From: an uncultured Opitutia bacterium | GTDB lineage: Bacteria > Verrucomicrobiota > Verrucomicrobiia > Opitutales > Opitutaceae | Length of the DNA: 64,000 bases | NCBI GenBank assembly: GCA_903877135.1 | Contig: CAIRCN010000053.1 | Coordinates: 1 to 64,000, forward strand | Direction of reading: 5' to 3' | Shown here: piece by piece, positions 1 to 7,481 of the stretch | Layout of the letters: each line of letters begins with the position of its first letter | How positions within the stretch are numbered: the stretch's first letter is position 1 | Notes under the pieces: model-generated | What the model saw: only the letters and a program-made list of their open reading frames with translations | Told to the model about the DNA's origin: nothing | Databases searched by the model: none | Program-made: the position numbers and the translations under genes

Positions 1-246
<246 letters not shown>

Positions 247-318
247 TGCAGACTTCAATTCTAGGCGTTTATTTTACCTCCTTGGCTTGAGTTATTTTTC
301 CTGAATTTTTCTTCAATT

Positions 319-342: not shown

Positions 343-458
343 TCCTGGTGACCACAGGCGAGGGGTTCCACCCGTTCCCATCCCGAACACGGCCGTTAAG
401 CCCTCAGCCGCCAATGGTAGTAGGACGTTAGGTCCCGCGAGAGTAGGTTGTTGCCAGG
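343..458 (+). rRNA. rrf: 5S ribosomal RNA
   Basis: About 116 nt with the 5S hallmarks: 5' TCCTGGTGACC pairs with the 3' GGTTGTTGCCAGG end, and the conserved loop 'CCCGTTCCCATCCCGAACACGG' region is at about 371-392 (loop C and helix III). 'GGTCCCGCGAGAGTAGG' near the end is also typical. It lies about 95 nt after 23S in the same orientation and is followed directly by a strong terminator. End positions are good to one or two bases. Confidence 0.95.
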
Positions 459-463
459 TTTAT

Positions 464-499: not shown

Positions 500-725
500 A
501 TGTTTTATGGTTCGTATCCCTGTCCGGCCCATGAGTTGATCATCACCGAAGCTCCAGGAAAATCCGGTAAACGGCCGGCGGGGGACCTCGTAGGCGACGA
601 GTGAGATCTCATGTACGATGTCGCAATGGCAGTATGCGTCCGGGGGAGGACCTACATCCTGGACCTTGATGGTGACCATTGGGTGACCAAAGTTGTCACC
701 AATGGGGACCGCGATGGGGGCGAGT

Positions 726-1170
726 TTCGATCCGCGCGGACTCCGCGACCGCTACACGAACTATTTTACCAACAACCGCGCCATCGCCCTCATCCAGCAG
801 TCCTACGCCATCGACAACCCACGGAAGTTCGCCGGCTACTGTGCGTAAACGGTTGTCCTCGGAGCCGGCCAAGGCATCTCAACCGCGTTCGTCTATCCTA
901 ACTTAATCTCCTCGATCCGCTGTCCAACGGATGGGGACCACCTCACTCGGGGCGACGACTTGGGGCGTGTTCGGCTTCCACGACAGTTTCAACGAGACCC
1001 AAAACTGGTTCGAAGAGGACTACATGGCGCTCAATCAGGCACCGATCGTGGTCATGATCGAAAACCACCGCACCGGGCTGGTCTGGAAAAACTTCATGGC
1101 CAATCCCGAGATCGCCACCGCGCTCAAGGCCATCGGCTTCCAGCCCGACCGCGATCCCGCAGTGAAGTGA
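726..1170 (+). pseudogene. Remnant of a glycoamylase-like (PF10091-type) gene
   Basis: Two pieces in different frames match the C-terminal part of the glycoamylase-like glucosidase family. Piece one (726-848) reads FDPRGLRDRYTNYF then NNRAIALIQQSYAIDNP, resembling the family's 'DFRG.RD.Y..YF.N...A...AYC..NP' block, and ends at a TAA. Piece two (about 946-1170) reads WGVFGFHDSFN, then YMALNQAPIVVMIEN and a TGLVW..FM segment, the family's terminal block. The roughly 100 residues normally between them are missing or scrambled. It has no start, two frames and an internal deletion, so it is a decayed gene. Family naming is from memory of the motifs. Confidence 0.7.
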
Positions 1171-1213
1171 CGCGCACCCGCACCGCTGCGCCAGTAACCA
1201 CCATCTCGATCTC

Positions 1214-1423
1214 ATGGAATACCACTCGCGCCATGATTCCATCAAACGACTGCCGCTTGCCGTCCTCGCTTCGTTGACGGGATTGCCGTCGCCGAAGCAG
1301 GATCTTGATGACTCCAAAATTTGGGAGGCATTTCAGAACGAGGAAATTCGGCGGATCGCCCGCTATTGCGAATGGGATGTGGTCACGACCTTGAATCTCC
1401 TCCGGATCCTTCGTCCTCGTTAA
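1214..1423 (+). pseudogene. Fragment resembling a PolB-type 3'-5' exonuclease C-terminus
   Basis: A 69-codon open stretch contains HDSIKRLPLAVLASLTGLP, a D.SKIWEAF segment and IARYCEWDVVTTLNLLRI. This resembles the end of the predicted 3'-5' exonucleases related to the PolB proofreading domain (PF10108-like), where 'LA.L.GLPGK.', then '.V..L...G...EI..YCE.DVL.TY.L' carries the last catalytic Asp. Nothing upstream in this frame supplies the rest of the domain, so I call it a truncated remnant. It sits just after the glycoamylase remnant, in the same decayed zone. Confidence 0.45.
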
Positions 1424-1608: not shown

Positions 1609-2136
1609 ATGAAAACCGCCATCAAAATTATCTGCGCCCTCCTGCTCAGCGCCACTGCCCTGTGGGCCGTCGACGCCAAGAAAAACTGGAAAGCACCGGC
1701 GCATAAAATCTACGCCCAGCAGCTGTCTGATGAGATCATGACCAATAACCCTGACCTAATCAGCATCACATTCCATGGCGTGCCCCCGGGTCTGTCGAAG
1801 GTCTACACGATGTTTGCTGGCTCCTATCTGGAGCGCATTGGCAATCCGGACGATCCGGATGACGTGATGATCATCGAGCTCGGCATCACCATGCTCGATC
1901 CCCGCTGGCACCGCATGAAGGACCCAGCCAAGAAATTCGTCATGATGATGCCTCTGCGCAATGCCTCTGGCGAAAATATCGGCCTGCTGGTCGCCGCCTA
2001 CAAGAACCCCGAATTCAAGCCAAACGGCAGCAATGCCAAGCTTGAGGCAGAATTTTACGCTAAGGGCACCAAGCTGCGCGACGAGTTACAGGTGAAAATC
2101 CCCAGCTACGAAGGCCTGTTTACCCCGGTTAAGTAA
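1609..2136 (+). CDS. Secreted hypothetical protein
   Basis: A 175-residue protein I do not recognise. Residues 1-23 form a clear Sec signal peptide ([20 protein letters not shown] followed by VDA), so the mature protein is probably periplasmic or exported. The rest is soluble and mixed: Met-rich around '[13 protein letters not shown]' and '[11 protein letters not shown]', with no Cys in the mature part and no membrane helix. A TTAAAA-rich stretch at about 1505-1540 upstream could hold a promoter, but I cannot place one. It ends 19 bp before the chimeric propeller/PEPCK ORF and may be cotranscribed with it. Confidence 0.75.
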
Positions 2137-2155: not shown

Positions 2156-3421
2156 ATGAAATGCTTGTTCGCCGCGATCGCGGCCCTCACCTACCTCAGC
2201 CTCCCGGCCCAGCCATTCTACAGGATGGAGTCGGCACTTACCATCAAGAGCCCCACTGCGCCTTCCTGGGACTACCTCACCTACGACTCGTCGCGCGACT
2301 GCCTTTACATTGCGCGGCGGGACGACGGCATCCTCATTTACGATGCCAAGGCGAAGAAGATCACCGGGGTTATAGAGGACACCAAGGGTGGCAATGCTAC
2401 TGTGCTAGTGCCTGAGTTCGACCGCGGCTATGTCATCAACCAGGATGGCAGCGCGACAGTCTTTCAGCTTTCCACGCTGATGAAGATTGCCCGCACGCCT
2501 TTTGGCGAGAGCGCGGACAACGGTTTCTATGACCTCGTGACGAAGCAGATTCTAGTCACACAGGGCGACAACAGTCAGGCCACGTTTATCGATGCGAAAA
2601 CCGGCGCCGTTAACGGCGTCCTCAAGATTGACAGTGCGAGCCTCGAAGGCACGGCAGCAGACGGCGAAGGCATGACCGATGAGCCGCCCGCGCACGCCCT
2701 CGACTGGCAGGGCAAGGACTGGACGCCCGCGCTCGCGAAGGAGACCGGTGCCAAGGCCGCGCACCCCAACGCGCGCTTCACCGCCCCCGCCGCGCAATGC
2801 CCGACGATGGACGCCGACTGGGAAGAACCTGAGGGCGTGCCGATCAGCGCGTTCATTTTCGGCGGCCGGCGCGCGACGACCATGCCGCTCGTCTACCAGG
2901 CGTTCAACTGGAGCAGCGGCGTCTATGTCGGCGCCACCATGGGCTCGGAGATGACTGCCGCCTCCGCCGGCACGATCGGCAAGGTGCGCCGCGACCCGAT
3001 GGCCATGCTGCCGTTCTGCGGCTACAACATGGGCGACTACTTCCGCCACTGGATCAACATGCAGCGCAACCTCTCTGAGACGCCGCGCATTTTCCACGTC
3101 AACTGGTTCCGCAAGGACAAGGAGGGAAAATTTATGTGGCCCGGCTACGGCGAAAACATGCGCGTCCTCAAGTGGATCGTCGAACGCGTCCACGCCGGCG
3201 GTCGCGCCAAGGAGATGCCTATCGGCTGGGTGCCACGCTACAAGGACATCGACTGGGCGGGCCTCGACTTTCCCCGCGAGAAATTTGAGGAGCTCCAGCA
3301 CTTCGACCGCGCCGCCTGGCGCACCGAGGTGCTCGGTCACGAAGAACTGTTCCTCGACCTCCACTCGCACCTGCCGAAGGAGCTTCTGTTTGAGCGCGAA
3401 CTCCTCATCTGCCGCATGTGA
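2156..3421 (+). CDS. Chimeric ORF: YncE-like propeller N-terminus joined to the C-terminus of GTP-dependent PEP carboxykinase
   Basis: This is a continuous 421-codon ORF made of two unrelated parts. Residues 1 to about 171 start with a signal peptide ([20 protein letters not shown]) and read like a YncE/SMP-30-type beta-propeller (repeats such as [34 protein letters not shown]). From residue about 172 (GMTDEPPAH, near base 2671) it is the C-terminal part of GTP-type PEP carboxykinase: [44 protein letters not shown] and [13 protein letters not shown] are all diagnostic. The kinase part lacks the N-terminal half with the P-loop (usually ACGKTN) and the catalytic Lys/His/Asp set, so it cannot be an active PEPCK, and the propeller is cut short. 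It overlaps the next gene by 4 bp (ATGA). Probably a recombination product; expression is unknown. Confidence 0.8.
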
Positions 3422-4197
3422 GCACAGCACCACTCCCGCCGCCTCATGACCGGTTTTCGCCGCTGGGAGAAAGCTATGCGAAATTTCGCCCAACCTATCC
3501 GCGCGAAATCTTCGACTGGTTGGCCAACCTGATCGACTTATCGCCGGGTCGTGAAGTGGCGGACATTGGGGCCGGCACCGGTCTCTTTACCCAGCTCCTG
3601 CTCGCGCGCGCCCTCAGAGTCAGGGCCGTGGAGCCAAGCGCACCGATGCTGGAGGAGGCCATTGCGCGCTTGTCGGGCTACGACGGTTTCACGGCCGTGG
3701 TCGGCACGGCCGAGCAGACGAACCTACCCGCGACTTCGGTGGATGCAATTTTCTGTGCGCAGGCATTTCATTGGTTTAACCACGAGGCTGCCGTCGCCGA
3801 GTGGCACAGGATCCTTCGGCCCCGCGGGAGCGCTGTCCTTGTCTGGAACAACATCGATCAGAGCGATCTGTTTGGGCGGAGACTCGCGGATCTGATGAAG
3901 CGCTATGCCGTCGATGGTGGACGGACGATCGCCCTAGCGCTCGAGGTGCAGGCTGAGAACGTTCTCTTTGGAAAGTCCGCCTCTGCAAGGAAGATTTTTT
4001 CTAACCGGCAATTCATGGACTATGCCGGTTTCGTCGGCCGCACGGAGTCAGTGTCGTATGCGCCGAAACCGGGCGACCCACGCTTTACTGCGATGATCGA
4101 TGAACTCAGAGCTTTGTTTGAACAATGCCAGAGTGACGGGCAGGTCACGCTGCACTACAAGACGGTGGCACTTGTCGGACCCGTGCCCGCACCCTGA
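3418..4197 (+). CDS. Class I SAM-dependent methyltransferase
   Basis: A 259-residue cytosolic methyltransferase of the UbiE/Methyltransf_11 type. Motif I is [15 protein letters not shown] (about residues 43-57), followed by an acidic loop ([11 protein letters not shown]), a FCAQAFHWF segment (motif II/III region, as in yeast Tmt1/Crg1-like enzymes) and '[15 protein letters not shown]'. The substrate is not evident. The start ATG overlaps the stop of the chimeric PEPCK ORF by 4 bp, which would allow translational coupling. Whether this arrangement is ancestral or a result of the rearrangement upstream cannot be told. It faces the RraA-like gene with a 9-bp gap. Confidence 0.85.

Positions 4198-6452: not shown

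Positions 6453-7481
<1,029 letters not shown>

Follow-up and report, generated by a model that had tools for sequence, protein, structure and literature searches.

The open reading frame at 2156–3421 (+) of the window, a 64,000 nucleotide stretch corresponding to positions 1–64000 of contig C53 of its own genome (G000), is probably a recent, chance, in-frame product of deletion or rearrangement in a decaying strip of DNA beside an rRNA operon. The ORF listing and translation give a single frame of 421 amino acids with no internal stops, with residues 1–170 matching the N-terminal half of a beta-propeller-type protein, and residues 171–421 the last 251 residues of a GTP-dependent PEP carboxykinase (PEPCK). 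The proposed event would have removed the second half of the propeller and the first ~357 codons of the inherited pckG, a copy that may have become dispensable because an intact pckG of another clade, located on contig C6, can supply the enzyme. If translated, the hybrid product, with a computed mass of ~47 kDa, would probably be misfolded and perhaps exported, with its open frame at most letting ribosomes reach the overlapping start of a methyltransferase gene through putative translational coupling. No result presented here requires a function for the hybrid protein, and it may well have none.

The N-terminal half of the propeller-type protein occupies 2156–2665 (+), comprising 170 codons assigned from homologue matches, with a signal-like start judged by eye only, and the C-terminal third of pckG occupies 2666–3421 (+), comprising 251 codons and the natural stop, as assigned from Pfam, NCBIfam, and PDB matches. 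Comparison with the pckG genes of relatives places the junction of the two parts within ~2662–2673 (+), where TGGGAAGGCATGACCGA in the pckG of G001 corresponds to GGCGAAGGCATGACCGA in the window, confirming an initial sequence-only reading in which a frame open throughout joins two unrelated families. The bases GAAGGC at the join, seen on the pckG side, may have aided joining by microhomology, as proposed in the sequence-only reading. The right edge of the PEPCK part is sharp, with similarity to the relatives' pckG stopping at the pckG stop codon (3419–3421). As a random join keeps the reading frame one time in three, the in-frame state of the join is by itself no evidence beyond chance.

Residues 8–170 of the hybrid align at 52% with the N-terminal half of a 354 residue propeller-like protein of the relative G010, with the alignment covering only approximately half of this homologue and so falling short of a complete propeller. 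The sequence-only reading had named this part a YncE propeller, however it scores only 16.2 bits against the YncE family (NCBIfam NF052280, cut-off 400), the whole hybrid gives a trace of 12.4 bits, far below the cut-off, and Pfam assigns no propeller family to the N-terminal part. The uninterrupted G010 homologue is likewise a weak YncE match (51.7 bits against the cut-off of 400). The likeness to YncE-like beta-propeller proteins (NF052280, Pfam YNCE) is confined to the resemblance of the first 170 residues to half of the G010 protein, whereas the hybrid differs from them in having half a protein only, in a group where even the uninterrupted homologue scores far under the cut-off. Judged by these alignments, "propeller-type" appears a reasonable description and "YncE" a loose label. 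The propeller half alone is matched in 18 of 95 genomes, its own included.

Pfam recognises the C-terminal domain of PEPCK_GTP (PF00821) in residues 171–415 (E = 7.5e-101, profile positions 112–352 of 357), PEPCK being the only family it assigns to the whole hybrid, and NCBIfam PRK04210 matches residues 171–417 over model positions 360–603 of 612, with a score of 368.1 bits that does not reach the whole-protein cut-off of 504. All 23 PDB matches listed for the hybrid are PEPCK-GTP chains, starting at chain position 331 or later, with the best match beginning at 361 and that to 1khb at 374. In comparison with the PEPCK-GTP enzymes (PF00821, PRK04210; e.g. PDB 1khb and 9e32), residues 171–421 of the hybrid form a standard C-terminal third, but the first ~357 residues, including the P-loop and metal site, are absent, with half a propeller in their place. 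The N-terminal P-loop, metal-binding, and PEP-binding residues, whose roles and places we take to be those usual for the family, are missing from a match that begins only at model position 360 of 612, in agreement with the earlier suggestion that the kinase catalytic motifs had been lost. Lacking the P-loop and metal-binding part, the hybrid is expected to have no PEPCK activity and is presumably catalytically dead as a PEPCK.

Apart from the fragment, the genome yielded a single pckG, intact and located on contig C6 (L004, 2048–4195), a second copy for which the sequence-only reading had advised a search. The possibility that the PEPCK third is a copy of this gene was rejected, with the third showing 80% protein identity to the C6 pckG (a 20% difference) compared with 87% to the pckG of both G001, a genus-mate, and G019, and with the two lying on opposite sides of a split with a support of 99 in a tree of 27 sequences. 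In this tree the fragment falls with G001, G019, G027, G002, G025, and G026, its exact place within that clade being weak (support 41–42), and the C6 copy pairs with G023 (support 89). Four of the 29 relatives with loci (G007, G013, G055, and G045) failed the motif filter and lie outside both the tree and the invariance count given below; only relatives for which a locus was available in addition to matches were included, and G028 is represented by a partial frame.

A cation-efflux gene lies no more than ~1.1 kb upstream of pckG in six of nine relatives (G001, G002, G025, G026, G027, and G031); the exceptions are G019, in which the two genes are ~6 kb apart, G022, which is at a contig edge, and G023, in which the stretch fetched contains no match. 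The cation-efflux gene of the window's own genome lies on contig C56, with no pckG match in the 18 kb fetched around it, and with the nearest long frame, which is convergent, ending ~45 bases from it. Given the difference in clade and the lack of a pckG at the customary location, the hybrid appears to be all that is left of the inherited gene, with the C6 gene probably an incoming pckG from another clade and the inherited copy lost bar its last third on C53. The argument from inherited place is weakened by the cation-efflux neighbourhood not being universal (G023, G019, G022). Frames neighbouring the C6 pckG have no match in the pckG surroundings of the nine relatives, when frames of at least 150 aa are compared at E 1e-15 and >45% identity. 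As an observation in its own right, the C6 pckG is the only intact copy, differs in clade from the remnant, and lacks the neighbourhood usual for the gene, pointing to a probable gene displacement.

Deletion-fusion pseudogenes are a general notion in bacteria. The hybrid is similar to these in that two truncated genes are joined amid broken genes, with an intact copy of one found elsewhere, but differs in being in frame and undecayed. Each of its two parts lacks sequence present in homologues, with the missing pieces absent from the draft assembly (97.29% complete): across the assembly, the missing N-terminal part of pckG matches only the intact C6 gene, and the sole match to the missing C-terminal half of the propeller is a distant paralogue (33%) on C56.

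Since several neighbouring genes are also broken, the hybrid is best regarded as one scar among several in the decaying strip beside the rRNA operon. The contig starts within the 3′ end of a 23S rRNA (1–251 (+), Rfam RF02541, cut at its 5′ end), followed by a 5S rRNA (344–459 (+), Rfam RF00001). A glycoamylase (PF10091) remnant at 723–1107 (+) consists of two pieces in two frames (profile positions 65–104 and 162–221 of 221), with the middle of the domain missing and with PF10091 otherwise without a match in the genome. The PolB-like 3′-5′ exonuclease (PF10108) at 1193–1393 (+) is truncated to profile positions 102–167 of 213, with no other PF10108 match in its own genome and none in G001, G025, or G010. 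Beyond the hybrid, an aldo/keto reductase at 6456–7448 (−) contains two in-frame stops and looks like a young pseudogene; a G025 frame without interruptions shares 83% identity with it over 331 aa.

Other features of this strip were also considered. A repeat of ~87 bp at 632–717 (+) is 91% identical to DNA at the beginning of a DDE_3 transposase-like frame on contig C5, with a shorter match on C22 (52 bp, 85%); this repeat, also located at 1501–1587 of L198, contains the near-palindromic GGTGACCAAAGTTGTCACC and is possibly a small mobile element. The open frame at 1609–2136 (+) encodes a small protein of 175 aa with homologues (60–62%) in G010 and G025. A conserved pair of small protein and propeller was set aside as weak support: in G025 a small-protein homologue is followed by a paralogue of itself and then by a propeller frame, at which locus the propeller half of the hybrid has no match at 1e-3, and G010, the source of the closest propeller, carries the small-protein homologue and the propeller on different contigs. 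Insertion with flanking direct repeats was rejected, with none of the repeats listed flanking the PEPCK part. A 48 base match on C51 across the junction, gapped, 40/49 identical, and sitting in a frame judged by eye to be a mannose-1-phosphate guanylyltransferase, was taken as chance.

The foremost alternative, although an unlikely one, is an assembly chimera, with the join at 2662–2673, or the left 2.7 kb of the contig, wrongly assembled from two places or strains. In its favour, 2.7 kb separate the join from the contig end, which falls within a 23S rRNA, the assembly is a draft (87 contigs, 97.29% complete), and GC3 shifts at the join from 0.76 in the propeller half to 0.88 in the PEPCK third, with the flanking small protein and methyltransferase genes at 0.74 and 0.69 respectively. 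However, the sequence common to both sides amounts to at most ~6–9 bases, which is short for an assembler to bridge unaided, contamination is given as 0.02, and the nearby genes are broken in ways that one wrong join cannot explain. Were the join a chimera, the two missing halves would also be expected at other places in the assembly, where searches detected neither; a gap in the draft could, however, conceal them.

The PEPCK part shows none of the sequence decay or relaxed selection associated with pseudogenes, with the fragment differing at 0 of the 89 columns that show no variation among 26 intact sequences, namely C6 and 25 relatives. Four residues are private to the fragment, compared with two in G001, two in G019, and six in G027, and its terminal branch is not long, at 0.084 compared with 0.052 for G001, 0.068 for G019, and 0.111 for G027. 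Pairwise dN/dS between the fragment and nine others is 0.08–0.23, and 0.06–0.26 for the intact pairs computed. By a rough estimate, 48–98 changes would be expected at the invariant positions had the whole terminal branch been free of constraint; as none is seen, any such free period would, again roughly, amount to less than ~3–6% of the fragment's terminal branch. This lack of decay implies a recent join or continuing constraint on the PEPCK part. The sequence-only reading had described the C-terminal part as conserved and the event as recent, of which the conservation stands, and the recency is one of two readings, with continued constraint fitting equally well. The unchanged invariant columns fit a recent chance hybrid, but would be just as likely in a hybrid maintained by selection, and to this extent count against our preferred explanation.

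A selected fusion, in which the hybrid is made and used, for example as an exported nucleotide-binding or scaffold protein, is nevertheless very improbable in our judgement. Its frame is open throughout, its start is signal-like by eye, and its PEPCK part shows no sign of relaxation, but a recent, unselected event also accounts for these observations, and the hybrid lies amid broken genes without the PEPCK catalytic core and without half of the propeller. The layout is also found in none of the relatives searched: a search of 57 genomes of the order, its own included, returned matches in 50, and in none of the 56 other genomes does a match span both parts, the propeller-type and PEPCK-type matches lying in separate places, leading us to reject a conserved two-part protein for the order. 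Homologues with the same layout, raised by the earlier reading as evidence that would count against it, were thus not found in these relatives. Four PEPCK matches start just before residue 171 (at 151 in G012, 152 in G010, 163 in G018, and 164 in G021), in frames of 611–697 aa. In a scan of a wider collection, the P-loop motif lies in the matched frame for 76 of the best 80 of at least 590 loci, three are cut near a contig edge, and the remaining locus (L042) is a 637 aa frame without the P-loop motif as defined here; as far as could be judged, these best 80 are ordinary PEPCK. The plasmid collection yielded one distant match, to the PEPCK part only, and searches of the open-access literature in PMC revealed no such hybrid.

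The class I methyltransferase at 3418–4197 (+) has a GTG start that overlaps the TGA stop of the hybrid by four bases (GTGA, 3418–3421), with methyltransferase similarity beginning within the first 12 residues in the alignments shown. Both features would suit a frame kept only as a leader, its translation feeding the overlapping methyltransferase start, an explanation we consider highly unlikely, with such upkeep not needed if the event is recent. The right edge lying exactly at the pckG stop, together with the GTGA overlap, is tidier than random insertion would produce and suggests an earlier pckG-methyltransferase operon or selection, which counts against a chance product, as does the absence of any such operon from the pckG loci of the nine relatives. 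The methyltransferase, matched at 1e-20 in 7 of 57 genomes including its own, has no match in those nine loci, in L004 around the C6 pckG, or in the G010 propeller locus. A newborn gene, in which an exported half-propeller and PEPCK C-lobe became fixed after displacement of the inherited pckG by the other-clade copy and was kept via co-translation with the methyltransferase, seems scarcely probable.

Whilst we favour a recent chance product of deletion or rearrangement, the hybrid calls for caution in annotation, with automatic methods liable to label it a PEP carboxykinase. It likely records that a core gene of gluconeogenesis was replaced by a family member from another clade, the hybrid preserving the final trace of the original gene.
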